From: a virus
Strand: one strand, 5' to 3'
Length of the DNA stretch: 21,037 nucleotides
Virus record (IMG/VR): IMGVR_UViG_3300037153_001173
Coordinates: 1 to 21,037 of that record
The position numbers were made by a program, and so were the translations under genes. Position 1 is the first letter of the stretch; every line of letters begins with the position of its first letter. The notes beneath the pieces were generated by a model. That model was not told the DNA's origin, ran no database searches, and saw only the letters and a program-made list of their open reading frames with translations. Below are positions 3,383-21,037 of the stretch, piece after piece.

Positions 3383-3456
3383 GCGCGCGGCACCTTGGTG
3401 TCGTCGGGCAGGCCCGCGAGGCGCTTGATCAGCTTTTTGAGGCGATGGCTGGTCGC
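3379..3456 (-). pseudogene. 3' stub of a lost minus-strand gene
   Basis: The frame that ends at the TGA overlapping the 86-aa gene start (ATGA) reads ...SHRLKKLIKRLAGLPDDTKV then PRA and stop. Codon use is strongly G/C-ending and the peptide looks like the C-terminus of a real phage protein. Immediately upstream the sequence becomes the plus-strand coding of the helicase D5 N-terminal region, so only about 20-25 codons of this gene survive. It was presumably the preceding gene of the integrase operon. Product unknown; the exact breakpoint cannot be placed to better than about 15 bases by eye. Confidence 0.5.
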
Positions 3457-3563
3457 TGCGCCGGCAGGATGACGGCGACTATGTCTCGTTCCAGCCGCAT
3501 GATCCGGCCGATCTCATCACCAAGCTTGCACCGGTCGATTATGAGCCGAATGCCGATCGGCCT

Positions 3564-4535
3564 GTGTTCGATGCCTTCCTTGCCCGAATACAGCCTCGCG
3601 CAGAAATGCGCGCGTTCTTGCAGCAATGGCTCGGATTGTCGCTGACCGGCGATGTCTCCGAACAGAAGCTCGCGTTCTTCTATGGCAAGGGCGGCAACGG
3701 AAAATCGGTCTTGATCGACGCCGTGTCCTACGTCGCCGGCGACTATGGCGAGACGGTGCCGATCGAAACCTTCCTCGATCAGGGTAAGGCGCGCAGCGCG
3801 GGGCAGGCCACGCCGGATCTCGCGATGTTGCCGGCCGTGCGGATGCTGCGCACTTCGGAGCCCGAGAAGAATTCGAGGCTCGCAGAGGCGATGATCAAGC
3901 TCGTGACCGGCGGTGAGCCGATCCAGGCGCGGCATCTCAATCGCGACTTCTTCAAGTTCTATCCGCAGTTCAAGTTGACGATGAGCGGCAATTACCGGCC
4001 GCAAATATCAGGCACGGATGAAGGAATCTGGCGCCGTGTGCGGTTGGTGCCGTTCCAGGTCATCGTCCCCAAGGACGAGCGCGATATCCATCTGCCGGAC
4101 AGACTGCGCGGCGAGGCCTCCGGCATTCTGAACTGGCTGCTCGATGGTTTGCGCACCTGGTGCGACAAGGGTCTGCATGAGCCCGACGACGTCGTGCAGG
4201 CCACGGCCGAATATCGCTCGGCGTCCGATCCGCTCGGCCGCTTCCTTGCGACATGTGTGGTCGAGAGCGCGGGCGATCGCGTGCAGTCGTCCGTGCTGCA
4301 CGAGGTCTATGAGGCGTGGTGCAAGGCGTCCGGCGAAAAGGCCTGGTCGGGCCGCGGGCTGTCGATGGCGATGGATGAGCGCGGCTTCAAGCGCAAGCAG
4401 AGCAACGTGATGTGGTGGCTCGACATCAAGCTCACCAAGAGCGTGAACGATTTCGTCGATGCGCAGGGTCATCCGATCCGCATCGTCGATGGCGCAGAAC
4501 AAACGCGGAAGGAGGCGGGCGATATGGAGTTCTGA
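3564..4535 (+). CDS. Phage primase-helicase, P4/D5 type, 5'-truncated
   Basis: Superfamily 3 helicase half of a P4/D5-type phage primase. From the GTG at 3564 it is 323 residues: Walker A GKGGNGKS at 41-48, Walker B region AVRMLRTSEPEK with acidic residues at 99-101, sensor-1 LTMSGNYRP with N143, and arginine cluster WRRVRLVPF at 156-164. The C-terminal ~100 residues are the usual winged-helix DNA-binding tail. Coding resemblance continues upstream of the GTG: in frame back to the TGA at 3438 one reads GDYVSFQPHDPADLITKLAP then VDYEPNADRP, typical of the segment just before the D5 N-terminal domain. Family members are usually 500-800 residues with an N-terminal primase or primase-polymerase domain; that part is absent. 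It would unwind DNA at the phage origin as a hexamer but cannot prime. Whether it is expressed is unclear, since no good ribosome site precedes the GTG. Confidence 0.85.
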   Translation: MFDAFLARIQPRAEMRAFLQQWLGLSLTGDVSEQKLAFFYGKGGNGKSVLIDAVSYVAGDYGETVPIETFLDQGKARSAGQATPDLAMLPAVRMLRTSEPEKNSRLAEAMIKLVTGGEPIQARHLNRDFFKFYPQFKLTMSGNYRPQISGTDEGIWRRVRLVPFQVIVPKDERDIHLPDRLRGEASGILNWLLDGLRTWCDKGLHEPDDVVQATAEYRSASDPLGRFLATCVVESAGDRVQSSVLHEVYEAWCKASGEKAWSGRGLSMAMDERGFKRKQSNVMWWLDIKLTKSVNDFVDAQGHPIRIVDGAEQTRKEAGDMEF

Positions 4536-4799
4536 TCCTCCCATCCTCCCAAAATGGGAGCTTGTGATTCGGCTGTAAGCGTTTGATCGGCAAACGTTTG
4601 GGAGCTTAAGGGAGGTTTGGGAGCTTGTTTCTATACGTACATGCGCGCGTGCGCGCGCGGGCGCACATAAGTAAAACATGGAAATAAGCTCCCATTCCTC
4701 CCATCCTCCCAAAATGAGAAAAACGCCTTTGATAGATAAAGGCTTTTTACGATGGGAGGATAAATCGGAGCCTTCGGCAAGCTCCCATCTATCCTCCCA
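4535..4799 (+). repeat. Iteron-like TGGGAGCTT / ATCCTCCCA repeat cluster
   Basis: Starting at the helicase stop codon, nine-base words recur in both orientations. TGGGAGCTT is at 4555-4563, 4599-4607 and 4618-4626, with its complement AAGCTCCCA at 4686-4694 and 4779-4787. ATCCTCCCA is at 4535-4543, 4543-4551, 4703-4711 and 4791-4799, with its complement TGGGAGGAT at 4753-4761. A 21-bp exact direct repeat containing these words occupies 4536-4556 and 4696-4716. Between them lie a CGTTTG-ATCGG-CAAACG hairpin (4580-4596) and a strictly alternating pyrimidine-purine tract (4632-4659). Such clusters beside a replicative helicase gene suggest an origin of replication or a binding array for a phage regulator; this is inference. 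No gene is evident from 4536 to 4917. Confidence 0.75.
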
Positions 4800-4917
4800 A
4801 TGCCGAGATGTTCCGATCCGGACCGTCTCGACGGCCACAACACACGGCGCGAGGCCTGCGGCGGCAGGCAACGACGACCAGCAAATCGAGGGCAAATCGA
4901 AATGTTGGAGAAACGAA

Positions 4918-5598
4918 ATGAAGCCGTTGAGCGAGGCGTTTTCGCCGGAGGTGATGGCGGAGCTGTCGCGACCGGTCGGCCGTCGGCACCAGCACTTGCC
5001 TGGAGCGGCAGCAGGCATGCCCGCGGTCCACTGCATCGATCCGTGGTGGATCGGAAGGGTTAAGTCCCGCGCGCATCGTCTGGCGCGGGATGCGTTGAAG
5101 CGCGAAGGCTTTGAGGTGTGGTATCCACAGGGACGATTGCTGACGTTGATGCCGCATCGCTTCATCGGTCCGAAGAAGCGGAACCGAAAGCAGATTGTCT
5201 TGCGTGAGGGTGTTCGCGAGCCCTATGGCGACTACATCTTCCTGCGAAGGCTATTCGGGTCGTTCTCGGTGCTGCGGTTGTTTGAGGTCAGTGGTTGTTA
5301 CGGCATTTGTCTAACTGGCGAGCGGCCGGCGACCATCGAGGACTTTGAGGTCGAGATGCTCAGGCTTGGGGAGTTCGACGGCAAGTTCGATCGCTGCGAT
5401 GCCCAGATCACCGCGAAGCAACTCCGGCTGGCCGACGTTCGCCCGACGGACGCCGCGAAGGAACGAGCCGCGTCCGAACCGATCACCCACGCCATCCTTG
5501 ACTCGACTCAGCAAACGCTCCTATTCGTCGAGGTGTTCGGAAGAATCACCCGCGTGGTGGCGGGTATAGGAGGAGACCTTCCAGCATCCGAACCCTGA
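4918..5598 (+). CDS. NusG-like transcription antitermination protein
   Basis: A 226-residue protein starting MKPLSEAFSPEVM, with GGAG eight bases upstream; the frame is open farther back, but that part crosses the repeat cluster and is unlikely to be coding. Residues about 42-150 match the layout of the NusG/RfaH N-terminal domain: WWIGRVKSRAHRLARDALKR, then EGFEVWYPQ, a basic loop PKKRNRKQ, then 'YGDYIFLRR', a 'SGCYGICLTGERPATI' segment and 'EDFEVEMLRLGEF'. The C-terminal 'LLFVEVFGRITRV' resembles the end of a KOW/SH3 domain, though the KOW is incomplete. Such proteins bind RNA polymerase and let it pass terminators; here it would act on phage operons. It lies alone between the repeat cluster and a terminator-like hairpin. 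NusG-likeness is judged by eye. Confidence 0.62.
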   Translation: MKPLSEAFSPEVMAELSRPVGRRHQHLPGAAAGMPAVHCIDPWWIGRVKSRAHRLARDALKREGFEVWYPQGRLLTLMPHRFIGPKKRNRKQIVLREGVREPYGDYIFLRRLFGSFSVLRLFEVSGCYGICLTGERPATIEDFEVEMLRLGEFDGKFDRCDAQITAKQLRLADVRPTDAAKERAASEPITHAILDSTQQTLLFVEVFGRITRVVAGIGGDLPASEP

Positions 5599-5689: not shown

Positions 5690-6174
5690 CACGTGTACTC
5701 ACACGCATGCTCGATCCGGAATTTGCCGGTTGTGACCCCAGGCGGAAATTGCCGAGTAGCTCAATGATGTGAATATCGCATCTGCGAAAATCTCGTCGCA
5801 ATCCACGATCGTCAGCAGGCTGATCGTCTTGGGTACGATCGACTGGCCAAACCGTTCGTCTTTCGGCCACGATGCATCGAAAAGGAGCGGGTCCCGGATA
5901 ACCCACTCCGTTGCAGGCAGTGATCACGGCCATGCCGAATGACGTCTGGCGCAGTTGTTGCTTGACCGCACGAAGGGCATACCGGCATGTTAAAGGGAAC
6001 CAAATCCGCGAATGAACTTGGGCTTTTGCAACCGAGTTCGTGTTCGGCTCGCATCGTCATGTACGATCCGAAAACTTGTCGTCTAAGTGCGACCAGCAAC
6101 CGACTGGAAGCAAAGACCAGTGCCCCCAAGGTGATCCGCCAGGCCGCCGAAGCGCGATAACACTGGCCAAGAAC
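5690..6174. other. About 490 bases without a convincing gene
   Basis: Between the terminator and the transporter ribosome site there is no reading frame with protein-like composition on either strand. Short minus-strand frames exist (for example within 5812-6129) but have no start signal and a random-looking composition. I found no tRNA-like cloverleaf and no well-matched promoter. It presumably holds the transporter promoter and the left breakpoint of the cargo block. Confidence 0.5.
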
Positions 6175-6189
6175 AAGGAGGTAAGTGCC

Positions 6190-7530
6190 ATGGACGAGAT
6201 CGAAGCAAGAACCATCCGCAAGGTGATGTGGCGGTTGCTGCCTTTTCTCTTTGTCTGCTACTTCGTCGCGTACCTCGACCGAGTGAACGTTGGTTTCGCC
6301 AAACTGCAGATGAACTCGGCGCTCGGCCTGTCAGAGGCGGCATACGGCTTTGGCGCGGGCCTGTTCTTCATCTCCTACTTCCTGTTCGAAGTACCCTCCA
6401 ACCTCGCGCTGGAGAGGTTCGGCGCGCGGCTCTGGATCGCCCGCATCATGTTAAGCTGGGGCGTGATCTCTGCTCTGTTCGCCTTTATCGCCCCGATCTC
6501 AGCGGCAACCGGGATCTCGAGCGAATGGACTTTCTACATCCTCCGATTCCTGCTTGGTCTCGCCGAGGCGGGTTTCTTTCCCGGGATCATTTTTTATTTG
6601 ACGCTCTGGTTCCCCTCCGTCTACCGCGCTCGGGTTGTTTCCCTGTTCATGCTGGCGATCCCGTTCTCGTCGATTGTGGGCGGACCGGTTTCCGGGGCTC
6701 TGCTGAACATCTACGGCGTTGGACTCGACGGCTGGCAGTGGCTCTTCATCCTCGAAGGCGTGCCATCGATCCTGATGGCCTTTGGTGTCATCTTTTACCT
6801 GACCGACCGGCCGGCGATCGCGACGTGGCTTGCGAACGACGAGAGGGGCTGGCTCGAAGGACGGCTAGAGTCCGAGAGGCAGCACAAGGTGGCGGTCGAG
6901 CACGTGGGCATCGTCAAAGCGCTCGCCGATCCTCGCGTCCTCGCCTGCGCGTTCGTCTACTTTTGTCTGAACGCGGCGAGTTATGGTGTGGCGTTCTTCT
7001 TGCCGACGATCATCAAGAACTTCGGCGTGAGCAATTTTGAGACCGGCCTTCTGTCCTCTGTGCCGTTCTTGTTTGGTGCTGTCGGGATGGTCCTGTTAAG
7101 CCGCAACTCCGATCGCACCTTGAAGCGTCGGGAGCACGTTTGCTTCGCTATGCTCCTCGCCGCGCTCGGTCTCGCGGGTGCGGGCCTGGTCTCCGCCCCG
7201 GCGCTGGTGCTTGGCTTCCTCTGCCTGAGCCAGATCGGCGTTTCCGCGACGCCCCCTCTGCTTTGGCCGATACCGAGCGCCTTCCTGACGGGCGCTGCGG
7301 CTGCGGCCGGGATCGCCGCGATCAATGCGCTCGGCAACCTGTCCGGGTTCGCCGGACCCTTCCTCATGGGCTACCTCAAAGACGCGACCGGCAATTTCAC
7401 GGCCGGGCTGCTCGTCCTGAGCGGTTGCGCCTTGGTCGGCAGCCTTGTGGCCCTGACGTTCAAGGTCAATCCGCATCTAGAGGTCGCGGGAGCTGCGCCG
7501 GGCGGGCCGGCGCCGGCACCGGCCAGCTGA
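6190..7530 (+). CDS. MFS transporter, anion:cation symporter (ACS) family
   Basis: A 446-residue inner-membrane permease starting MDEIEARTIRKVMWRLLPFL. The ATG is preceded by a perfect AAGGAGGT (6175-6182) seven bases away, so the longer in-frame start at 6040 is rejected. The protein has the ACS signature YLDRVNVGFAKLQM after TM1, 'FFISYFLFEVPSNL' in TM2, 'RFLLGLAEAGFFPG' in TM4 and WLFILEGVPSILMA at the end of the first six-helix bundle; a central loop (~215-245) and six further hydrophobic segments follow. The last ~18 residues are Pro/Ala-rich. Relatives import organic acids such as tartrate, phthalate or hydroxyphenylacetates by proton symport; the substrate cannot be told here. It stands alone between two phage modules with no metabolic partner genes, so it is best seen as cargo rather than phage function. 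Confidence 0.9.
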   Translation: MDEIEARTIRKVMWRLLPFLFVCYFVAYLDRVNVGFAKLQMNSALGLSEAAYGFGAGLFFISYFLFEVPSNLALERFGARLWIARIMLSWGVISALFAFIAPISAATGISSEWTFYILRFLLGLAEAGFFPGIIFYLTLWFPSVYRARVVSLFMLAIPFSSIVGGPVSGALLNIYGVGLDGWQWLFILEGVPSILMAFGVIFYLTDRPAIATWLANDERGWLEGRLESERQHKVAVEHVGIVKALADPRVLACAFVYFCLNAASYGVAFFLPTIIKNFGVSNFETGLLSSVPFLFGAVGMVLLSRNSDRTLKRREHVCFAMLLAALGLAGAGLVSAPALVLGFLCLSQIGVSATPPLLWPIPSAFLTGAAAAAGIAAINALGNLSGFAGPFLMGYLKDATGNFTAGLLVLSGCALVGSLVALTFKVNPHLEVAGAAPGGPAPAPAS

Positions 7531-7623
7531 GAGAATTAGTCTGCGAACCTCGAAAGCGCGCAGACACTTCTCTCTCCCAGTGTGGCCGATCGAGACGCGG
7601 CTGGTCTACGCGAGGAGCGCACA

Positions 7624-7657
7624 GTCCGCTTGCTAAGCGGACAATCGCTCAGCGATT
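7624..7657. repeat. Two back-to-back perfect hairpins
   Basis: GTCCGCTT-GCT-AAGCGGAC (7624-7642) is followed without a gap by AATCGC-TCA-GCGATT (7643-7657). The first shares the GTCCGCT/AGCGGAC arms of the repeats in the second cargo block. It ends 32 bases before the HNH ATG and 94 bases after the transporter stop, so it may act as a terminator or an mRNA-stabilising element at the right edge of the transporter block. There is no T-tract. Confidence 0.7.
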
Positions 7658-7689
7658 GCCTAACTATCTTATCTACGAGTACGCACCCA

Positions 7690-8040
7690 ATGGCGCAGAT
7701 CAAGGTGCTTGCCCCACTGGTTCCAAGTGGCGATCATCGCACTATCAAGCAGGAACGTAAGCGCGCTGACCCGTTCTACCATTCGGCGGGTCACGAGGCG
7801 TTTCGCAATGCCGTGTTGTCGCGCGCCGGCCATCGTTGCGAATGGATCGAGGATGGCAAGCGGTGCGAAAAGGCGGCACCTCAGCGCCGCCTGTTCGCCG
7901 ACCACATCAAGGAACGCTGCGACGGCGGCGATCCCTACGATCCCAACAACGGCATGTGCCTCTGCGGCTCGCATCACACGACCAAGACCGCCCGCGAGCG
8001 CGCGAGCAGAATGGTCGCGAACGGAGGGGGAGGGGGCTAA
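7690..8040 (+). CDS. HNH endonuclease
   Basis: A 116-residue protein from the ATG at 7690 (MAQIKVLAPLVPSGDHRTIK). The HNH core spans about residues 38-105: zinc-site cysteines C50 and C59 (RCEWIEDGKRCEK) and C90/C92, first histidine in LFADHIKERCDGGD (H72), asparagine in DPNNGMCLCGSHHTTK (N86/N87) and last histidine at H95/H96. The tail is a run of glycines. HNH proteins just upstream of the terminase genes are a known part of HK97-like packaging modules, where they stimulate DNA cleavage at cos or pac sites by the terminase. Order and spacing here (61 bp before the small-terminase-like gene) match that. A longer in-frame start at 7582 would pass through the hairpin pair and is less likely. 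Free-standing homing activity is the alternative. Confidence 0.85.
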   Translation: MAQIKVLAPLVPSGDHRTIKQERKRADPFYHSAGHEAFRNAVLSRAGHRCEWIEDGKRCEKAAPQRRLFADHIKERCDGGDPYDPNNGMCLCGSHHTTKTARERASRMVANGGGGG

Positions 8041-8101
8041 ATTCCTCCCCGTCTCAACCCCCGCCAACCGCACGGGTCCTCATTCGCGGATTTTTTTTCT
8101 C

Positions 8102-8581
8102 ATGGATCAAATTTTCGACCTGTTTGGCGACCCGGTACCAGCCAACTGGGGTGAGCGTGGTCGGCCGGAGCACATCCCGACGCAGCAAAACCGGAATCGT
8201 GTCAGTATGTTAGTCGCGCTTGGCTGGAGTAATCAGCGGATCGCGGCCGCGTTGTTCATCACAGTGCCGACGCTGCGGAAGCATTATTTTTCTGAGCTCA
8301 AATATCGCGACGTTGCGCGTGACCGCTTGACCGCCGGCGTCGCGATGAAGCTGTGGGAAGGCGTCCTGGCCGGAAGCGTCAGCGCGATCCGCGAATTCCG
8401 CGCCTTCGTCGATCGCAATGATCTCATGCTCTATGGTCAGAAAGAGCAGCCGCGCATCGAGAAGGCCGCGAACCCGCCCAAGCTCGGCAAGAAGGAAGCC
8501 GCTGCGCTCGCGGCGCAAAACCCCGATCGCAGCTCAGTGCTCGGCGAGCTGATCGCGCAACGGCGTAACCTCCCGAATTGA
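8102..8581 (+). CDS. Small terminase-like HTH protein
   Basis: A 159-residue protein starting MDQIFDLFGDPVPANWGERG. A helix-turn-helix is visible at about residues 31-60: NRVSMLVALGWSNQRIAAAL, then FITVPTLRKHYFSE. The C-terminal half is helical (residues 70-110) and ends in a basic, Ala-rich tail (KLGKKEAAALAAQN). Position between HNH and TerL, with four bases separating it from TerL, is that of the small terminase subunit, which would recognise the packaging site and deliver DNA to TerL. Sequence alone shows only a DNA-binding fold; the terminase role is from context. No clear Shine-Dalgarno precedes the ATG, which follows an unusual run of eight T (8092-8099). A longer start at 7709 overlaps the HNH gene and is rejected. 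Confidence 0.72.
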   Translation: MDQIFDLFGDPVPANWGERGRPEHIPTQQNRNRVSMLVALGWSNQRIAAALFITVPTLRKHYFSELKYRDVARDRLTAGVAMKLWEGVLAGSVSAIREFRAFVDRNDLMLYGQKEQPRIEKAANPPKLGKKEAAALAAQNPDRSSVLGELIAQRRNLPN

Positions 8582-11832: not shown

Positions 11833-12534
11833 ATGCGGATCAGATCAGAACGCAAGTCAGTCGCGTTCGAATACAAGTTCGTCGACGAGGCTGCGCCACC
11901 GGGCACGTTCGAAGGCTACGGATCGGTCTTCAACAACGAGGACGACGGCGGCGATTTGATCCTTCCCGGGGCCTTCGCCGGGGCGATCCAGCGTCACCAG
12001 GCCAAGAGCACGATGCCAAAGATGCTGCTCAATCACGGCAGCATGGGCGGCTTCTTTGGTGGCAGCGATCCGATGGCCGATCTGCCGGTCGGCTGCTGGA
12101 ACACGATGAGCGAGGACACCCATGGCCTGCAGTGCAAGGGCCGGCTGATCAATCTCGACACCGAGAGTGGCAAGCGGATCTACGGCGCGATGAAGGAGCG
12201 CGCGCTCGATGGCCTGTCGATCGGCTACACGGTCGGCGAATTCACCCGCGGCACCAAGCCAAACGAACCACGCCGCACCATCAAGACCATCAAGTCGCTG
12301 CCGGAGGTCTCGCTGGTTACGTTCCCGATGAACGAGCTGGCGCGCACCGGCGCGGTCAAGGCCGCCGACATCCGCACGGTGCGGGAGTTCGAGGACGCAC
12401 TGCGCGACGTGCTCGGCTTCTCATATGCCGCAGCCAAATCGATCGCCCTGCGCGGCTTCAAGGCCGCGAACGACCAGCCGTCGCGGCTCGACGGTTTCAT
12501 CGCATCGTTGCGAGATGTGCGCCGGCAAATCTAG
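11833..12534 (+). CDS. Prohead protease, HK97 family (peptidase U35)
   Basis: A 233-residue serine protease, starting two bases after the portal stop with GGGAGG upstream. Catalytic elements: histidine H68 in MLLNHGS, serine S129 in ALDGLSIGYTVGE and acidic E158 in SLPEVSLVTFP. The N-terminal GTFEGYGSVFNNEDDGGD, LILPGAF stretch is typical. It would cut the scaffolding domain from the capsid protein during prohead maturation. The last ~50 residues (REFEDALRDVLGFSYAAAKS onward) form the usual helical tail. In related phages the next gene is the major capsid protein; here the capsid gene is about 5.6 kb away beyond host-type DNA. Confidence 0.93.
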   Translation: MRIRSERKSVAFEYKFVDEAAPPGTFEGYGSVFNNEDDGGDLILPGAFAGAIQRHQAKSTMPKMLLNHGSMGGFFGGSDPMADLPVGCWNTMSEDTHGLQCKGRLINLDTESGKRIYGAMKERALDGLSIGYTVGEFTRGTKPNEPRRTIKTIKSLPEVSLVTFPMNELARTGAVKAADIRTVREFEDALRDVLGFSYAAAKSIALRGFKAANDQPSRLDGFIASLRDVRRQI

Positions 12535-12554
12535 GTGTTTGCCAAAAGTTCGCG

Positions 12555-12583
12555 ATGTCCGCCTGGTCCCCAATTGCGGACAT
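12555..12583. repeat. ATGTCCGC...GCGGACAT palindrome, left edge of cargo
   Basis: Eight-base perfect arms at 12555-12562 and 12576-12583 with a 13-base loop, 20 bases after the protease stop codon. It shares the GTCCGC/GCGGAC core with the other repeats of this block and marks the first host-like sequence after the head genes. Confidence 0.65.
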
Positions 12584-12672
12584 TACCTAGCAACCAATCC
12601 ATGACCGCGAAGGGCCATAACCGGACTCATCCGCTGAAGCAACACATGCGCACGCTTCGGCATTACCTCAAT

Positions 12673-13161
12673 TCACAGCGGGTTCGGCAGATCGATCACC
12701 TTGGCGGTGTCGGCGCTGTCGCTTGTTTCAATTCGACGTTTGATAGTCTCGCAGGTCTTGCGAACGTCTTCGGTAAACAACGCGCAATCCTCGATGCGCT
12801 TGAAGATCTTCTTGGCTTCCTCGCGATACGCCGCCGCGATCTCGCGCATATATGCAATCGCATTGTGCACTTCCGCCGTCATCGCCTCGCAATTCTTTGC
12901 GGCGCTGATCAGTTCGGCTCCCATTGCTTCAATTTCCTTGGCGGCGGATTCATGGTCGCGCACCATGGCCTCTGCACTGAGCGCGCCGACACGCGGGACG
13001 CCATCCTGACGCTCGACGTAGTCCGGCATCGGATCGGACTGTACTGGTGGTGCGTTGTTGATTGGGATGAGCGAGCGAGCAGGAATCGCCGCCGTGACAT
13101 CCGCTTCAAGTTTAGCCAAGTCTAGTGGCGCGTTTTTGCCTACGTTTTCGGTGCGGGTCAT
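12673..13161 (-). CDS. Unknown coiled-coil protein, 162 aa
   Basis: A 162-residue protein starting MTRTENVGKNAPLDLAKLEA. AAGGA eight bases upstream supports this start. The N-terminal ~65 residues are Pro-rich (AIPARSLIPINNAPPVQSDP); residues about 65-150 form continuous helix with heptad-like spacing (AEAMVRDHESAAKEIEAMGA, AYREEAKKIFKRIEDCALFT), so a coiled coil is likely. No signal peptide or membrane segment is seen. I recall similar proteins as repeated, uncharacterised genes in Bradyrhizobium and relatives, but cannot name a family. It runs opposite to the late operon and its 3' end faces the protease gene. Confidence 0.72.
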   Translation of the reverse strand: MTRTENVGKNAPLDLAKLEADVTAAIPARSLIPINNAPPVQSDPMPDYVERQDGVPRVGALSAEAMVRDHESAAKEIEAMGAELISAAKNCEAMTAEVHNAIAYMREIAAAYREEAKKIFKRIEDCALFTEDVRKTCETIKRRIETSDSADTAKVIDLPNPL

Positions 13162-13261
13162 AGGTCAATCCTTACTAATTACCAAACGTAACAACCTGCG
13201 GCCTTATAGTAACAAAACGCCGCCAACTGTAACTTTACTACCAACGTCCTATCAAACGTGG

Positions 13262-13324
13262 TTAATTTGCTAGGGCATTGGCGATGATGCTCGCCGTCGC
13301 GATGTGGAAGTACACCTGACCCAT
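13262..13324 (-). pseudogene. Possible 20-residue remnant of a small DUF6894-like protein
   Basis: A short frame reads MGQVYFHIATASIIANALAN then stop. The opening 'MxQVYFH' resembles the N-terminus of small Rhizobiales proteins (DUF6894-like, about 75 residues), but the similarity ends after seven residues. It may be the truncated start of such a gene or chance. The rest of the 13162-13554 interval holds only the repeat at 13446-13505. Confidence 0.2.
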
Positions 13325-13445
13325 CGAAGGATTCGGCGCCGCAGACGCCGGGGCGTACCTCGTCCAGATCAATGGAGCGCGTGAAGGACGCGTTATGATC
13401 GATGCGCCATCGCGCGTGTAATGAAAGCAAAGAGATCGGCGCTCG

Positions 13446-13505
13446 CGTCTGCTTAGCCCCAATAGCGGCGTGAGAGCAGACATTCCGGGACCGCCGCTTT
13501 GGGCC
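13446..13505. repeat. Dispersed palindromic repeat, type 1, copy 1
   Basis: GTCTGCTTAGCCCCAATAGC followed by GGCG, then AGAGCAGACATTC and GGGACCGCCGCTTTGGGCC. It aligns over its whole length, by eye at about four fifths of positions, with 15787-15847. Read on the minus strand, it encodes peptides of the 'MSAL-P' type that are familiar as spurious ORFs from intergenic repeats of Bradyrhizobium. Confidence 0.65.
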
Positions 13506-13554
13506 CCACACAACCTGGGCCAATGGCAGACATCAGCACCGAAGAGCCGCCTCC

Positions 13555-13908
13555 TTATTCGTGAAGCAGCGTTTGCCAGTTTGGAGGCACCGCTTCGGTC
13601 GGTCCGGGCACCGGTTGATCCAACGGATGCGAGTGAGGGGCGTGAAGCTCCGGGCCGGCGAAGAACTCTCCAGTACGATAGTCGTAAAACCATCGTTCGT
13701 CCGGCTCAAAGCTCGTGATTATCGGATGACCAGTAGCCGCGTTATGTTTCGATGCATGCTGATTTGGTGAAGTATCACAGCAGCCGATGTGCCCACATTC
13801 GACACACCTGCGAAGATGCAGCCACCACCCGCCCACAGCCGAACATTCGACGCAACCCGTTCCGCTCGGCTTGGCTGCGAGGTTGATGCCATCTCTCTCA
13901 GACTTCAT
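13555..13908 (-). CDS. UBP-type zinc-finger protein
   Basis: A 117-residue protein starting MKSERDGINLAAKPSG. Residues 19-62 are a ZnF-UBP domain: C19 and C22 (CVEC), 'GGWWLHLRRCVECGHIGCCD' giving C35, C38 and C43, then H51, H55 and H61 in NQHASKHNAATGHPI, followed by SFEPDERWFYDYRTGE. In eukaryotes this fold binds the ubiquitin C-terminus; the bacterial stand-alone versions are common in Rhizobiales and Actinobacteria but their role is not settled. The tail is Pro-rich. It follows the VOC gene by 59 bases on the same strand and may share its transcript. Nothing ties it to phage functions. Confidence 0.88.
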   Translation of the reverse strand: MKSERDGINLAAKPSGTGCVECSAVGGWWLHLRRCVECGHIGCCDTSPNQHASKHNAATGHPIITSFEPDERWFYDYRTGEFFAGPELHAPHSHPLDQPVPGPTEAVPPNWQTLLHE

Positions 13909-13967
13909 AGGGTCAGCTCACTGAGAGTGTACGCGGTTCACCACAGATACTTTCACGCGTCCTGCTG

Positions 13968-14423
13968 TTAGCCGTAAGAAACGCCCGGGTTGCTTTGCCC
14001 AACTTCAATAATATAGCCATCAGGATCGCGAATGTAGCAGCGCGTCTCGCCGTACTTGGGCTTCGGCTCCGTGATGAACTCGGCTCCTCGACTTCGCCAA
14101 AGTTTATAACACGCTTGAATATCTGCAACGCGGATATTCATAAAGCTGCTGACTGAATCGGGATTGGCGGGGACGCTGAGCGTTACCGATGGTTTGTCGG
14201 GCGTCGGACCGCCCCCCGGGTTAACAAGGAGCCACGTGTTCGCGATCTGGATGTACCCCGGCGCGCCGCTGCTGTCGCCTCTGCTCAGAATGCGACCTCC
14301 GAAGACCGTTTCGTAAAATCGAAGCGATCGCTCGACGTCGGCGACGGTGAGAAAGTGTGCGACGCTAAACCCCTCCTGCGGCGGCATCTGATAGGTTTTC
14401 TGCTCGACTTGTACTTGGTTCAT
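13968..14423 (-). CDS. VOC family (glyoxalase / bleomycin-resistance-like) protein
   Basis: A 151-residue protein from the ATG at 14423 (MNQVQVEQKTYQMPPQEGFS), which has GGAG six to eight bases upstream; an earlier in-frame ATG at 14489 lacks such a site. It has two beta-alpha-beta-beta-beta modules: 'VAHFLTVADVERSLRFYETV' then FGGRIL (H23 a likely metal ligand), and 'SSFMNIRVADIQACYKLWRS' RGAEF with the closing RDPDGYIIEVGQ (E140 a likely ligand). This is one vicinal-oxygen-chelate domain pair. Members include glyoxalases, dioxygenases and drug-binding proteins; the substrate cannot be read from sequence. Part of the host-type cargo block, upstream of the UBP zinc-finger gene. Confidence 0.88.
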   Translation of the reverse strand: MNQVQVEQKTYQMPPQEGFSVAHFLTVADVERSLRFYETVFGGRILSRGDSSGAPGYIQIANTWLLVNPGGGPTPDKPSVTLSVPANPDSVSSFMNIRVADIQACYKLWRSRGAEFITEPKPKYGETRCYIRDPDGYIIEVGQSNPGVSYG

Positions 14424-14489
14424 AGGCGACTCCAATTCGCTGGGAATGGGCACCCCGCGACACGATATTTGAGCCCGTCGCTCTCGCAA

Positions 14490-14920
14490 GGAAAAGATTT
14501 GTCCAAATAGTTACATGAACCTTACGACAGTATCATCGGCGCCTCGAAGCGGCGGACCATCGTCCGGCCGGTGGGACGCATGTCGATACTGGCGTTGTGG
14601 TGCCAATCAGGGTTTGAGCAATTGGGTCAAAATGCGAAGAACTCAGCGCGAGCAAATATAGTCCGCTCCGCCCCACTCAGCGGACCTCAATCAGACGTGT
14701 CGCCACTTCGTTGACGGGCCAGGAGCTCTCGTACTTGGAACAGGAAGACACGTATACGGATTGCTCCGCCGCATCGCGCTCGGACCGGCGAACGATAGAG
14801 TGGGCCATCACGTTCAGACATGCCGAGGTCTCCGTGCGAGCATTCTAGTGCGAGTGCAAGACTCAGAAATTGACGGCAAGCAAGTTTCATAGCTCACCTC
14901 CTGTGTTACGATAAAGCCGT
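14490..14920. other. Intergenic stretch with one repeat and no clear gene
   Basis: The 430 bases between the divergent VOC and hydrolase genes hold the type 2 repeat at 14640-14687 and presumably the promoters of both genes. Short frames here (e.g. minus 14687-14890) have neither start signal nor protein-like composition. Confidence 0.5.
14640..14687. repeat. Dispersed palindromic repeat, type 2, copy 1
   Basis: Contains GTCCGCT (14661-14667) and AGCGGAC (14679-14685). It aligns with 17897-17944 at 36 of 48 positions by eye, including the flanking AACTCA and GAGCA segments. Confidence 0.65.
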
Positions 14921-14937
14921 GGAAAGAGGTGGCGCCA

Positions 14938-15705
14938 ATGGCAAAGGCACAGTCAGCATCCCTCGAAGTGGTGGTTTGGGGCTTTGGCCCGCGCGTGGTC
15001 TTGGTACACGGCAGCAACTTCAACGGTCCCTTGACGTGGAAGGAGCAGCGACCGCTCGGGGAATGCTGGCGACTGGAGGTCCTCAATCGCCGGGGGTACG
15101 GCGAGAGCCCTCCCCCGGAAGTGCGGTCGGATTTTGAGGAGGATGCGCGGGATATAGCAGCGTTGCTCGGTGACGACGCTCACCTCGTCGGGCACTCTTA
15201 CGGTGCCATCGGCGCGCTCTATGCCGCTGCGCTCCGGCCGCAGGCTGTGCGCTCGCTTACGATTAACGAGCCGCCAGCGTACCGATTGATCAAGGGCAAC
15301 GCGGAGGCAGATGCGATTGCCGCACGGTTAGAAGCGAACAGAAGAGATGTGCACGAACCCCGCGCTTTCCTTGAGGCTTTCAGGAAGATCATCAACGGTC
15401 CCGGAGCGCCTAGCCCCGTGCCGCTACCCGACCCGCTGCCGCCCGACATTCAGCAAGGCGTACTCACGACGATGGCGGCACGCGATCCGAACGAGGCGGA
15501 CATTCCGTTGGGTGCGCTCAGGCGAGCCTCCTTCCCAAAACTTGTCACCTCCGGGGGCCACAGTTCGGTATTCGAGGCGATCTGCGATGTCCTCCAGCGG
15601 GAACTTAACGCCGAACGTGTAATCATCCCCGGAGCTGGCCACTCGGTGCCGCGCGCCGGTGCTGCCTTCAACGAGCGCCTCGAAGCATTTCTGAAGGAGG
15701 CGTGA
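14938..15705 (+). CDS. Alpha/beta hydrolase
   Basis: A 255-residue protein from the ATG at 14938 (MAKAQSASLEVVVWGFGPRV), placed eight bases after GAGG; a GTG three codons earlier is possible. Canonical features: oxyanion-hole HG in VVLVHGSNFNG (H24-G25), nucleophile elbow GHSYG with S87, and catalytic histidine H235 in IPGAGHSVPRAG. 'NRRGYGESPP' is the usual loop before the first helices. A lid insertion lies at about 115-185. The acidic triad member is not obvious; the stretch SGGHSSVFE after beta-6 is where it is often found. It would be a soluble esterase-like enzyme, substrate unknown. It is the only plus-strand gene of the second cargo block and is convergent with the adenylyl cyclase. 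Confidence 0.88.
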   Translation: MAKAQSASLEVVVWGFGPRVVLVHGSNFNGPLTWKEQRPLGECWRLEVLNRRGYGESPPPEVRSDFEEDARDIAALLGDDAHLVGHSYGAIGALYAAALRPQAVRSLTINEPPAYRLIKGNAEADAIAARLEANRRDVHEPRAFLEAFRKIINGPGAPSPVPLPDPLPPDIQQGVLTTMAARDPNEADIPLGALRRASFPKLVTSGGHSSVFEAICDVLQRELNAERVIIPGAGHSVPRAGAAFNERLEAFLKEA

Positions 15706-15786
15706 GCGGGAGGGATCGCTCTAATAGCCAGCAGGACCTAATTTCGGCTCTGGGTCATTCGCGTCATTTTGGACCCAGTTGCGGGA

Positions 15787-15847
15787 TGTCCGCTTATCCC
15801 GTGACAGCGGCGCAAGAGCAGACATTCTCGGACCGCTGCTTCGGGCC
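15787..15847. repeat. Dispersed palindromic repeat, type 1, copy 2
   Basis: TGTCCGCTTATCCCGTGACA then GCGGCG, AGAGCAGACATTC and GGACCGCTGCTTCGGGCC. Matches copy 1 at 13446-13505. Upstream, CTGGGTC (about 15749-15755) and GGACCCAG (about 15771-15778) form a further inverted pair. It lies between the convergent hydrolase and cyclase genes, where it may help terminate both transcripts. Confidence 0.65.
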
Positions 15848-15916
15848 AACAAGAGACTCATGCATCGCAACAAATCGCGTCGTATTCGATCACCTTGTCG
15901 AAGCGACGCACCATAC

Positions 15917-17665
15917 TCATTCGGGCAACCCCGCTTTCCGAAGGCCCTCAATCAGCAGCTTCGAGTTTGATACCCCGCCCCGGGCAATCCACGCGGATAT
16001 TGTAAAGGCGGGATCATGCTCAAGCACACGCGCTGCCGCCTCACGCGCCTCAGCATCACGTCCGAGATGGGCGAAGGCAGATGCGAGACAGCGGTAAGAC
16101 ACCTGAAAGGCGGGGTTCAGACGTTGGGCTTTCTTGCCGGCGACGATGGCCTCGTCAAAGCGACGAAGCTCAACAAAAGCCATCCCCATCCCACCTAACG
16201 TCAGGTGTAGCAACCGGTCTACCGGGCTGATGCGAATGGCGCGTTCAAAGCTCCGGATCGCTTCCTCCGGCAGGCCCGCAATTCTATAGACAACGCCTCT
16301 GCATTGCCATGCGGCGTGCGAATTGGGGTTGAGCGCGACGGCCCGGTCAGCCATTTCGATCGCACGTTCACAATCGCCGACCATGGACGCCGAGATTAAA
16401 GCAACCGATGCTAACGTGTCTGGATCACCATCGTCGAGGCTCAATGCCAGGCGACAAAGCCGAACGGCTTCCTTGCGGTCGAATTCAGGATCGATCGCAT
16501 AGCCCCAATTGACGTTGTGCGCGTGACACTCAGCTGCCCCAGCTGCGGCGGGGCCGAACTGAGGGTCCAGCTCCAAGGCCCGGTGAGCCAACCTGCTCGC
16601 CTCGGCCAACCCTTCGCGGGTCGCTAGGTAAAACTGCTGCAGGCCGCGGAGATAATAATCATATGCAGTGAGGTTTTCCGGTCGCCGCCGCACCGCCATT
16701 GCAATTTCTGTCTGAAGCAATTTGGGCTCAATGGCTGAGACAATAGAGCTCGTCACCTCGTCCTGAAGAGCGAAAATGTCCGTCAGATCGCGCTCGAACC
16801 TATCCGCCCAAATATGGGTGCCGGTCACCGCATCAATCAACTGTCCTGCGATGCGAACTTTCCCCGACGCCTTGCGCACAGACCCCTCAAGGACGTAGCG
16901 CACGCCAAGCCTGCGTCCGACCTCCTTGATATCGACGGCTTTGCCTTTGAAGGTGAAACTCGAATTGCGCGCGATCACGAACAGCGATTTGAACCGCGAC
17001 AGCGCGGTGATGATCTCCTCAACCATCCCATCCGCAAAATACTCCTGTTCGGGGTCGCCGCTCATGTTCTCGAACGGCAGCACGGCGATGGAAAAAGGCT
17101 TGTCTGGAAGTGGCGGGGCCGCACTCAGCCTATCGATCAGCGCGCTAAACGCTCCCGCGCGTACCGCAAAAGCGCGGACCGGCTTGGCAATGTTCTTGAG
17201 CTGTTGTTCGCCCCGGTCCTCGAAGCCAACCTCCAGCTTACCCTCGACCTCGCTGTACACTTTCTCGGAAATCAGGATGCCGCCCGGATCGGCGACCCCC
17301 TCCAGCCGGACCGCAATGTTGATCCCGTCGCCGTAGAGTTCACCGTCCTGCCCAACGATAACGTCACCAAGATTGAGCCCGACACGTAACCTGAAGGGAC
17401 TGCTGCCCGAGGTGAGATGATCCTGTATCTCAACCGCGCATCTCACGGCGGCCAAGGGACTCGCGAACTCGACGAGCGCGCCGTCACCCGTGGTCTTGAT
17501 AAGCCGCCCGTCGTGGCGGGAGAGGCTAGGCTCGATGACTTCGCGCTTCAGCCGTTCAAACTCGGCGTAGGTGGCTTCCTCAGCGCGTTGCATCAACGCA
17601 GAGTAACCGACCACGTCGGCGGCCAAGATCGCCGCTAATCGCCTTTGAACCCGCTGCTCCGCCAC
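15917..17665 (-). CDS. Class III adenylyl/guanylyl cyclase with TolB-like and TPR domains
   Basis: A 582-residue protein starting MAEQRVQRRLAAILAADVVG. Residues 1-175 are a class III nucleotide cyclase: metal aspartates D17 (LAADVVGYSALM) and D61 (TTGDGALVEF), transition-state residues N116 and R120 (GDGINIAVRLEGVADPGG). Residues about 190-320 form the TolB-like periplasm-type fold seen in Rhizobiales cyclases (FSIAVLPFENMSGDPEQEYF, ADGMVEEIITALSRF, VLEGSVRKASGKVRIAGQLI). Residues about 335-565 carry tetratricopeptide-like repeats (SRLAHRALELDPQFGPAAAG, EMADRAVALNPNSHAAWQCR, SFERAIRISP). It would make cAMP from ATP in response to a protein or ligand sensed by the C-terminus. The architecture is typical of Bradyrhizobium and Mesorhizobium, which carry many paralogues. 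Intact; belongs to the host-type cargo block, transcribed against the late operon. Confidence 0.93.
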   Translation of the reverse strand: MAEQRVQRRLAAILAADVVGYSALMQRAEEATYAEFERLKREVIEPSLSRHDGRLIKTTGDGALVEFASPLAAVRCAVEIQDHLTSGSSPFRLRVGLNLGDVIVGQDGELYGDGINIAVRLEGVADPGGILISEKVYSEVEGKLEVGFEDRGEQQLKNIAKPVRAFAVRAGAFSALIDRLSAAPPLPDKPFSIAVLPFENMSGDPEQEYFADGMVEEIITALSRFKSLFVIARNSSFTFKGKAVDIKEVGRRLGVRYVLEGSVRKASGKVRIAGQLIDAVTGTHIWADRFERDLTDIFALQDEVTSSIVSAIEPKLLQTEIAMAVRRRPENLTAYDYYLRGLQQFYLATREGLAEASRLAHRALELDPQFGPAAAGAAECHAHNVNWGYAIDPEFDRKEAVRLCRLALSLDDGDPDTLASVALISASMVGDCERAIEMADRAVALNPNSHAAWQCRGVVYRIAGLPEEAIRSFERAIRISPVDRLLHLTLGGMGMAFVELRRFDEAIVAGKKAQRLNPAFQVSYRCLASAFAHLGRDAEAREAAARVLEHDPAFTISAWIARGGVSNSKLLIEGLRKAGLPE

Positions 17666-17896
17666 AGCGTCCTCCGAACGGCCAGACTAACCACGCGGGT
17701 GGGATAGGGAGAAGCCTAGCACTTTGTTGCGGACCTATGAGCGGTAATCGCGAGAGAGCCCATCTGCCCCCAAGCGGCATTTGCCGGGCCCAGACAGGCG
17801 CTGCGTTCGGGGCCGCGAACAACATCGTGCATCAGGCGGGGGCGCAGACCGGGGGTTCAAGCGGCGTTAATGACCGCTCAGGGTCACACCCGGAAT

Positions 17897-17944
17897 AACT
17901 CACGTTGAGCATATTCAGTCCGCTTCGCTCCAAACAGCTGACCT
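17897..17944. repeat. Dispersed palindromic repeat, type 2, copy 2
   Basis: Contains AGTCCGCTTCGCTCC and a decayed right arm CAGCTGACC. Matches 14640-14687 at 36 of 48 positions by eye. It is the rightmost host-type repeat before the capsid gene. Confidence 0.6.
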
Positions 17945-17995
17945 GGGCAAGACTTCGCAACAAATATCTCGCGGGCCAACCGCGAGACCTCGCCG

Positions 17996-18046
17996 GAGCC
18001 TCGGGATGAGGCCGGCGGCAATACCCGTCAGAGCCTCGGGATGAGG
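17996..18046 (+). repeat. 16-bp direct repeat GAGCCTCGGGATGAGG, two copies
   Basis: Exact copies at 17996-18011 and 18031-18046 with a 35-base period, 72 bases before the capsid ATG. They may be a local duplication at the insertion border or regulator-binding sites in the capsid leader. Confidence 0.75.
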
Positions 18047-18117
18047 ATGACGCGGACAGTGGCCGGCGCTTCGCGCCCGGCCGAACGCAACCCCCAAATA
18101 TCCGGAAAGAGGCTCAT

Positions 18118-19497
18118 ATGCCCGATATCGAAGACGTGCTGGAAGATGCCCAGCGCGAGATCAAGTCCATTGGCGACAACGTCAAATCGCTGAAGGACAA
18201 CATGGAGAAGAACCTTGCGGATGTCCGCAAGATCGCTGAGGACGCGCCGAAGGCCTTTGCCGCGTCTGAGCAGTTCAAGAAGGACATGGAGGCGCTGACC
18301 GCCGGCGTGCTGGAGAAGCACGACGCGGTCGCGCTCAAGGTCAAGGCGTTGACCGACGGTGCGCTGAAGGCCTCGACCGAGCGGATGGATGACATCGAGA
18401 AGAAGCTCAACCGCGGACGGCTCGGCGGCGGCTGGGGCGATGGTGACGAAGGCCGCAAGGGCGCGGAAGCGTTCGCCCGCGATGCCAAGGCACGCAGGGG
18501 GGAGCTGAAGACCGATTTCGACCCGGACAAGGTCGATCTCGAGGAGATCAAGTCCTACTGCAAGGCCTTCCCGGTCTACCTGCGCAAGGACGAGAAGGGC
18601 CTGCAGGGCGCGGAGACGAAGGCGATGAGCGTCGGCTCGGATCCGGACGGCGGCTACATGGTAACGCCGGCTATCGGGACCATCCTCAATGGCGTGCAGT
18701 TCGAGACGTCGCCGATGCGCGCGATCGCCAACATCGAGACGATTTCCTCGGACGCGATCGAATATCCACGCGACGACGACGAAGCCTCCGCCGGCTGGGT
18801 CGGCGAGCAGGAGGATCGGCCCGAGACCGGCACGCCGAAGGCCGGCATGCAGAGGATTCCGGTGCACGAGCTCTATGCCAATCCGAAGGTGACGCAGAAG
18901 CTGCTCGAGGACAACGCCTGGAATGTCGAGGCCTGGCTTGGCAACAAGATCGGCGACAAGTTCGGGCGTGTCGAGGCAAATGCCTTCGTCGCCGGCAATG
19001 GCATCAAGAAGCCGCGCGGCTTCACGACCTATGCCAGCGGCAGCTATGTCGCGGGCGGCTCCGGCAAGATCGAGCAGGTTGCGGCCGCAGCCGCGGGCCT
19101 GATTGGCTGGGACGATCTCATCAATATCCTGACCGCACTGAAGGAGTTCTATCTCGGCGGCGCCAATTGGCTGATGCAGCGCGCCACAGTCGGCAAGGTG
19201 ATGCTGCTGAAGGATGGCGAGGGCCGTTACATCTGGCAACAGAACCAGCAAGCAGGCAAGCCGTCGATCCTGCTCGGTTACGAGGTGCGCCAGGCCGCCG
19301 ACATGGACGCCGTCGGTGCGTCGAAGCTGCCGATCGGCTTTGGCAACTTCAAGATGGGTTACACCATCGTCGACCGCGTCGGCATCTCGACCCTGCGCGA
19401 TCCCTACAGCGCCAAGCCCTTCGTGCAGTTCTACACCCGCAAGCGGGTCGGCGGCGACGTCACCAACTTCGAGGCCATCAAGCTGCTCACGACCTGA
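18118..19497 (+). CDS. Major capsid protein, HK97 family
   Basis: A 459-residue protein starting MPDIEDVLEDAQREIKSIGD, with GGAAAGAGG just upstream. Residues 1-100 form a coiled-coil scaffolding (delta) domain (NVKSLKDNMEKNLADVRKIA, EDAPKAFAAS and onward). A charged linker (about 100-165) precedes the mature shell domain, which begins near SVGSDPDGGYMVTPAIGTIL (171-190) as in other HK97 capsids. The P-loop and A-domain segments follow: 'ELYANPKVTQKLLEDNAWNV' and IVDRVGISTLRDPYS near the C-terminus. The upstream prohead protease would cut before the mature domain. The gene looks intact, although its normal neighbour, the protease, is 5.6 kb away; expression from the late promoter would have to cross the cargo. 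Confidence 0.94.
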   Translation: MPDIEDVLEDAQREIKSIGDNVKSLKDNMEKNLADVRKIAEDAPKAFAASEQFKKDMEALTAGVLEKHDAVALKVKALTDGALKASTERMDDIEKKLNRGRLGGGWGDGDEGRKGAEAFARDAKARRGELKTDFDPDKVDLEEIKSYCKAFPVYLRKDEKGLQGAETKAMSVGSDPDGGYMVTPAIGTILNGVQFETSPMRAIANIETISSDAIEYPRDDDEASAGWVGEQEDRPETGTPKAGMQRIPVHELYANPKVTQKLLEDNAWNVEAWLGNKIGDKFGRVEANAFVAGNGIKKPRGFTTYASGSYVAGGSGKIEQVAAAAAGLIGWDDLINILTALKEFYLGGANWLMQRATVGKVMLLKDGEGRYIWQQNQQAGKPSILLGYEVRQAADMDAVGASKLPIGFGNFKMGYTIVDRVGISTLRDPYSAKPFVQFYTRKRVGGDVTNFEAIKLLTT

Positions 19498-20465: not shown

Positions 20466-21037
20466 TGCGTTCCATCGTCGAGATCGTCACGCCGGCCGCC
20501 TCCGAGCTGCTGACCACGCTTGAGCGCGTCAAGGCCGAGCTCAATATCACGACGGACGCGAATGACGAGATCCTGGAGGCGAAGATCGCCGAGGCCTCCT
20601 CCGACATCCAGGCAGCACTCGGCAAGCGTATGCCGCAGGAGGACGTCAAGGAGACCTTCTGGCATGATGACGACAGGCATCTGCAGCGCGTGGCGCACTT
20701 CGGCAATCCCGCGCAGACAACGCTATTCCTGAACCGCACACCGGTCTCCGCGATCGCCAGCGTCACAGTCGACGACCTCGTGCTCGATCCCGCGGAGCAC
20801 CGCCTCGATCCCGACGCGGGTCTGCTCGATCGGCTCTCGACCGACGGCATTCCCTGCGCCTGGTGTTTCTGCAAATCGGTGATCGTCGCCTACACGGGTG
20901 GCTTCATCCTGCCGGGCCAGGACGGCCGCAATCTCGCCTTCGCGATCGAAGGCGCGGTGGTCGCCCTGGTGTCGGATTATTGGGCAAGCCGCGGCCGCGA
21001 TCCGACGCTGCGATCTGAATCCATTCCCGGCGTCATC
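20465..21037 (+). CDS. Head-tail connector, gp6-like (partial at window end)
   Basis: 191 codons are present and the frame runs off the window. The protein starts MRSIVEIVTPAASELLTTLE, then RVKAELNITTDANDEILEAK and IAEASSDIQAALGKRM, which is the four-helix opening typical of HK97 gp6 / phage head-tail connector proteins. A middle beta region (TTLFLNRTPVSAIASVTVDD) and 'CKSVIVAYTGGFILPG' with a following helix 'NLAFAIEGAVVALVSDYWAS' complete the usual pattern. It would bind under the portal and join head to tail. The start overlaps the previous stop as TGATG. Confidence 0.85.
   Translation, partial: MRSIVEIVTPAASELLTTLERVKAELNITTDANDEILEAKIAEASSDIQAALGKRMPQEDVKETFWHDDDRHLQRVAHFGNPAQTTLFLNRTPVSAIASVTVDDLVLDPAEHRLDPDAGLLDRLSTDGIPCAWCFCKSVIVAYTGGFILPGQDGRNLAFAIEGAVVALVSDYWASRGRDPTLRSESIPGVI

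Follow-up and report, generated by a model that had tools for sequence, protein, structure and literature searches.

Moron hotspots have been described in Burkholderia siphoprophages (PMC2920897), in which extra genes of deviating GC content are located between conserved phage genes and differ from one relative to the next. In Cluster J mycobacteriophages, which are isolated, functional phages (PMC3706429), the head operon is broken by 8 to 10 nonstructural genes, variable among relatives, between the capsid gene and the head-tail connector genes. At the dusA islands (PMC4482086), which are inserted by an integrase, mostly at the 5' end of dusA, the target gene gains a new end and the old end stays behind as a relic.

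The locus described here was found in an IMG/VR virus record of 21,037 bp, in the following termed the window, which comprises the left portion of an HK97-like phage in its integrated state, with the gene order integrase (minus strand), primase/helicase remainder, NusG-like protein, MFS transporter, HNH nuclease, terminase, portal, protease, insert, capsid, small protein, and head-tail adaptor. The window ends (position 21037) within a connector gene, ahead of any tail or lysis genes; the related contig L006 runs on into tail genes. This bears on a capsid-forming PICI, which was considered as well and would have head genes but no tail genes. The nearest named phages by capsid, Azospirillum phage Cd (51%) and Bradyrhizobium phage ppBeUSDA76-1 (44%), have the same gene order as the window, but with adjacent protease and capsid genes (spacing of 12 and 7 bp, respectively). 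The insert resembles the Burkholderia morons in its position between conserved phage genes, its deviating GC content, and the variation of cargo among relatives at one spot; it differs from them in being larger (five genes), in lying at the protease-capsid junction, in combining scattered chromosomal genes with host repeats, and in being known from sequence alone. The Cluster J interruption is located one gene further downstream, and the part of that report considered here describes no swap of the protease 3' end as seen in the window. The latter feature is reminiscent of the dusA islands, from which the window differs in that its insert lacks an integrase.

With a probability of roughly 70%, we interpret the block as a moron, i.e., a cargo of several genes from Bradyrhizobium-type chromosomal DNA, which occupies a recurrent accessory site immediately after the prohead protease gene of an integrated HK97-like phage. 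In our judgment, the host genes behind the protease represent a moron-type cargo hotspot, i.e., a known kind of arrangement rather than a unique accident. Such a site would be a specific place at which host genes have entered repeatedly, within a gene pair that ranks among the most conserved of HK97-type phages, and both its empty form and intermediate states are at hand for comparison. It would speak against the assumption that head operons tolerate no insertions and offer a view of how the end of a phage gene is rebuilt when foreign DNA arrives.

The inserted block and its host-type genes

The features of the window are listed in Table 1. The first-pass annotation had placed five complete nonphage genes, four of them on the minus strand, between intact protease and capsid genes; all five were found at these places and on these strands (12673 to 17665), and both flanking genes are full length and open. 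The proposed gene identities held for the four proteins with claimed domains, the coiled-coil protein being without a Pfam match, and none of the five matched a PHROG family describing phage structural genes. The base composition of the insert differs from that of the phage, with a GC content of 58.8% versus 64.5% in the left and 64.8% in the right flank. The insert had also been thought to sit exactly in the intergenic gap. This applies to its left edge, which coincides with the protease stop, but the phage side on the right starts near 17990, where homology to relatives begins, and not at 18117; the supposed gap before the capsid gene derives in part from the 3' end of the protease gene itself, which persists there as a relic. 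The palindromes noted near both borders were found again, the left one 20 bp past the protease stop.

Table 1 Coordinates of the features in the window
Feature	Position	Strand	Remarks
Truncated primase/helicase	3456-4535	+	Residues 538-893 of the 893-residue L211 prim-pol remain
NusG-like protein	4678-5598		PF02357, E 0.009, below cut-off
Prohead protease S78, alternative C-terminus (GFKAANDQPSRLDGFIASLRDVRRQI)	11833-12534	+	Peptidase_S78, E 7e-21; full length, open; stop at 12534
Inserted host-type block, 5,455 bp	12535-17989	.	Occupies the place of a 20-22 bp spacer in L219/L220
Palindrome ATGTCCGC-N13-GCGGACAT	12555-12583	.	Adjoins left border
Coiled-coil protein	12673-13161	-	75-77% amino acid identity to chromosomal homologs (L207, L174); 79% DNA; no Pfam match
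Repeat, called dispersed, copy 1	13464-13505	.	86% to 15806-15847; also in L004 cargo
zf-UBP protein	13555-13908	-	91% amino acid identity to L205; neighbors VOC there too
VOC/glyoxalase protein	13968-14489	-	94% DNA identity to chromosomal homolog (L206); likely true start 14441
Dispersed host-type repeat	14622-14721	.	77% to copy on contig of cyclase genes in L204
Alpha/beta hydrolase	14929-15705	+	Domain match
Repeat, called dispersed, copy 2	15806-15847	.	Partner of 13464-13505
Adenylate/guanylate cyclase catalytic domain + TPR	15917-17665	-	Chromosomal homologs, 80-84% DNA
Dispersed host-type repeat, right end of insert	17869-17946	.	Found dispersed in Bradyrhizobium-type genomes (BLAST)
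Perfect palindrome TCTCGCGGGCCAACCGCGAGA	17967-17987	.	At right border
Phage-side pre-capsid stretch	17990-18117	+	Contains the motif twice (17999, 18034); remnant of ancestral protease 3' end
HK97-type major capsid protein	18118-19497	+	Phage_capsid, E 3e-71; full length, open

Dispersal in hosts was established by BLAST for the right-end repeat only; for the 42-nt repeat, a strict pattern search gave one copy in seven genomes. The insert contains no integrase, and no direct repeat was found at its two borders. Insertion of an IS element or transposon was ruled out, as there is neither a transposase nor a target duplication. A split prophage with the chromosome between its halves was likewise dismissed: 5.5 kb lie between the halves, both of which are in normal order.

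Homologs of the genes for the coiled-coil, UBP, VOC, and cyclase proteins were located at unrelated chromosomal places in host genomes, but the hydrolase had no close homolog among 266 genomes of the genus. This genus is likely Bradyrhizobium, because a prophage resembling ppBeUSDA76-1 of B. elkanii is present in one of the genomes. The UBP-VOC pair shows 88% DNA identity to the host and is adjacent in one genome (L205), and host homology of the cyclase region ends at 17888 in two genomes. DNA searches, evaluated for the best few candidates per genome, gave neither a match covering the entire block nor a single genome with all five genes. Among viral contigs, which were searched with the UBP and cyclase proteins, there was no close UBP relative and one cyclase relative with 49% identity. 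With host homologs for four of the five genes, the earlier suggestion of chromosomal DNA inside the prophage is supported; judged by these comparisons, the block is host DNA that possibly came from several places or from a host outside the genome collection. The cargo ORFs are intact and show dN/dS values of 0.11 to 0.26 against their homologs, low values that mostly reflect evolution before capture. A role of the cyclase in a Pycsar system was rejected; its fit to Pycsar cyclase models is weak (E 5e-6) and of a kind that any class III cyclase may show. PADLOC reported no defense system, and the other insert genes match no PADLOC model.

Empty sites and the protease gene's 3' end

Alignment of the flanks with relatives in which protease and capsid genes are adjacent revealed empty-site alleles in L219 and L220, whose capsids are 81 to 84% identical. 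In these contigs the protease stop is followed by 20 to 22 bp, two copies of the CCTCGGGATGAGG motif (37 bp apart), and the capsid gene; in the window, 5,465 bp separate the stop from the first motif copy, and the copies are 35 bp apart. The protease-capsid spacing is 136 to 322 bp in L219, L220, and L214 and 10 to 24 bp in L217, L010, L218, L009, and L011. In L217, L010, L218, and L009 the motif is single and belongs to the protease coding sequence, being translated as SEPRDED roughly 29 codons ahead of the stop; no further occurrence was found in the phage contigs checked. The protease of L214 has a different C-terminal tail, and the old tail, identical to L217 in 91 of 97 bp, follows 3' of the new one just before the capsid gene. 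The proteases of the window, L219, and L220 carry L214-type tails, and of the old tail these loci keep the motif part alone, in two copies; the clear match of the relic in the window extends over about 26 to 29 bp, unlike the full tail in L214.

The most economical reading of a new 3' end with the old one as a spacer is a join by homology in the protease body combined with a nonhomologous join further down. Entry thus probably occurred by way of the 3' end of the protease gene, and one common swap event may underlie the window, L219/L220, and L214. Between the protease and capsid genes of L214, a 47-codon GIY-YIG-like remnant was observed (12677 to 12817; E 0.01, below the Pfam cut-off). GIY-YIG homing was set aside as a cause, this weak remnant being present in one relative, and is kept as a lead.

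Cargo and probable decay in related phages

Among the nearest relatives by protease (at least 70% identity), none with the same five genes at the same place was found. The relatives have different genes there, which points to a recurrent site and not to a one-off event. Three groups (L002/L211, L004/L212/L005, and L006/L007/L215) show minus-strand genes ending about 0 to 360 bp from the protease stop and no capsid gene behind the protease on their contigs; in L211 and L212 this is because the contigs end. The cargo of L211/L002 encodes, on the minus strand, a 410-residue protein that matches nothing in Pfam and for which 147 genomes of the genus yielded one homolog (44%); that of L212/L004 consists of chromosomal DNA encoding a 619-residue protein and fragments of a PHA regulator and an integrase; that of L215/L006 is a minus-strand gene with a Tle1-like phospholipase domain, followed by tail genes. 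In a maximum-likelihood tree, the protease of the window and those of three cargo-bearing relatives cluster together (support 91/99; recovered in 96% of bootstrap trees), and protease dN/dS against the cargo-bearing sisters is 0.14 to 0.17. Either one opened site was inherited with turnover of its cargo, or the site was hit repeatedly.

A neighboring position, between portal and protease, is occupied by cargo in L214, L217, and L010/L210 (GDSL hydrolases, an acyltransferase, a recombinase-like protein, and an ankyrin protein). The corresponding cargo of L003 (3497 to 7827) includes a GDSL hydrolase, an acyltransferase with a possible role in surface modification, and a recombinase-like gene. 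The end of L210 and the start of L010 (metagenome 3300031507) look like halves of one phage broken within this cargo.

The expectation that a phage would hardly package with such a load was not borne out, as relatives with open head genes carry 3.8 to 4.5 kb between portal and protease. The Cluster J phages (PMC3706429) are functional with their extra genes between capsid and connectors; cargo in the head operon is therefore not by itself a block to packaging. Portal, protease, and capsid genes are open, with dN/dS values of 0.08 to 0.25 against relatives. Signs of decay were found elsewhere: the prim-pol of the window lacks residues 1 to 537 of 893 (about 60% of its length), TerL of L212 contains a frameshift and an in-frame stop (6504 to 8328), and in L215 and L006 (8682 to 10064) the protease and phospholipase genes are directly followed by tail genes, with capsid and connectors missing. 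Because prim-pol is truncated in the window and head genes are broken in two sister contigs, the prophage is probably partly defective; the alternative of a domesticated or decayed prophage is probable, though short of proof. Lesions were present in 3/4 contigs with this junction versus 0/5 compared relatives (Fisher P = 0.048, in a small sample with groups chosen afterwards), which suggests an association of decay with the junction.

Origin and expression of the locus

These lesions are what could be expected if host DNA had landed randomly in a degenerate, dying prophage, without a cargo site and without function. We consider such a one-off accident unlikely, because four distinct contigs have the junction at exactly the same codon, cargo also occurs next door, between portal and protease, in relatives whose head genes are open, and the window's own protease, portal, and capsid genes are all open. 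An assembly artifact, in which border repeats led the assembler to join a phage contig to host contigs, was judged highly improbable. Repeats and palindromes do lie close to both borders, and the sequence is known from the IMG/VR record alone. The metagenome contig L082 (capsid 96%) shares 17885 to 18116 at 99.6% and begins there, within the repeat, a start of the kind that assembly branch points produce; by the same token, part of the host-type repeat is attached to the capsid side in L082, and the right border is therefore not private to the window's assembly. At the left border, no second contig matched a 30-base exact pattern across the border, so misassembly may apply there. Two chimeric joins would be needed, however, both phage halves fit one phage in correct order around the insert, and the same type of junction occurs in sister contigs.

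Distinctly unlikely, in our view, is a site-specific mobile element, i.e., an island with an integrase or homing endonuclease that is directed to the 3' end of the protease gene and makes the gene whole again with a 3' end brought along by the island. It would account for the swapped C-terminus, the displaced old tail, and the twofold motif, and is in line with the integrase fragment in the L004 cargo, the recombinase-like gene in the L003 cargo, and the GIY-YIG-like remnant of L214. Yet the window's insert contains no recombinase, IS element, or target duplication, its cargo is not flanked by the two motif copies, and ordinary homologous recombination can also give a swapped C-terminus. Very doubtful, too, is the notion of a dedicated capture site, at which a putative homing- or integrase-type activity would swap the C-terminus and open a spacer where host DNA is collected and exchanged between prophages.

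According to the preferred reading of a recurrent moron site, an earlier recombination, by homology at the protease and illegitimate at its other end, would have given the protease gene a new 3' end and displaced the old tail downstream, thereby creating a spacer ahead of the capsid gene that was tolerated. Into this spacer, host DNA would then have entered, probably via breaks at dispersed palindromic repeats. As a rule, cargo genes of this kind are morons and are expressed independently in the lysogen (PMC2920897). Those of the window would likewise be transcribed on their own in the lysogen, mostly from the minus strand, and their likely products (a VOC-fold protein, a hydrolase, and a cyclase-TPR signaling protein) would act on the host and not on the virion. 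Capsid expression, if still occurring, would depend on read-through, perhaps aided by the NusG-like protein, or on a local promoter. A consensus scan gave 2 promoter-like (1.9 expected) and 7 terminator-like sequences (6.2 expected), i.e., chance level; consensus promoter scans fit alphaproteobacterial promoters poorly.

Upstream in the window, the MFS transporter gene (6040 to 7530) is located between the genes for the NusG-like protein and the HNH nuclease. L209, the closest portal relative, has an unrelated minus-strand gene for a 783-residue protein at this place, which therefore looks like a further cargo site.
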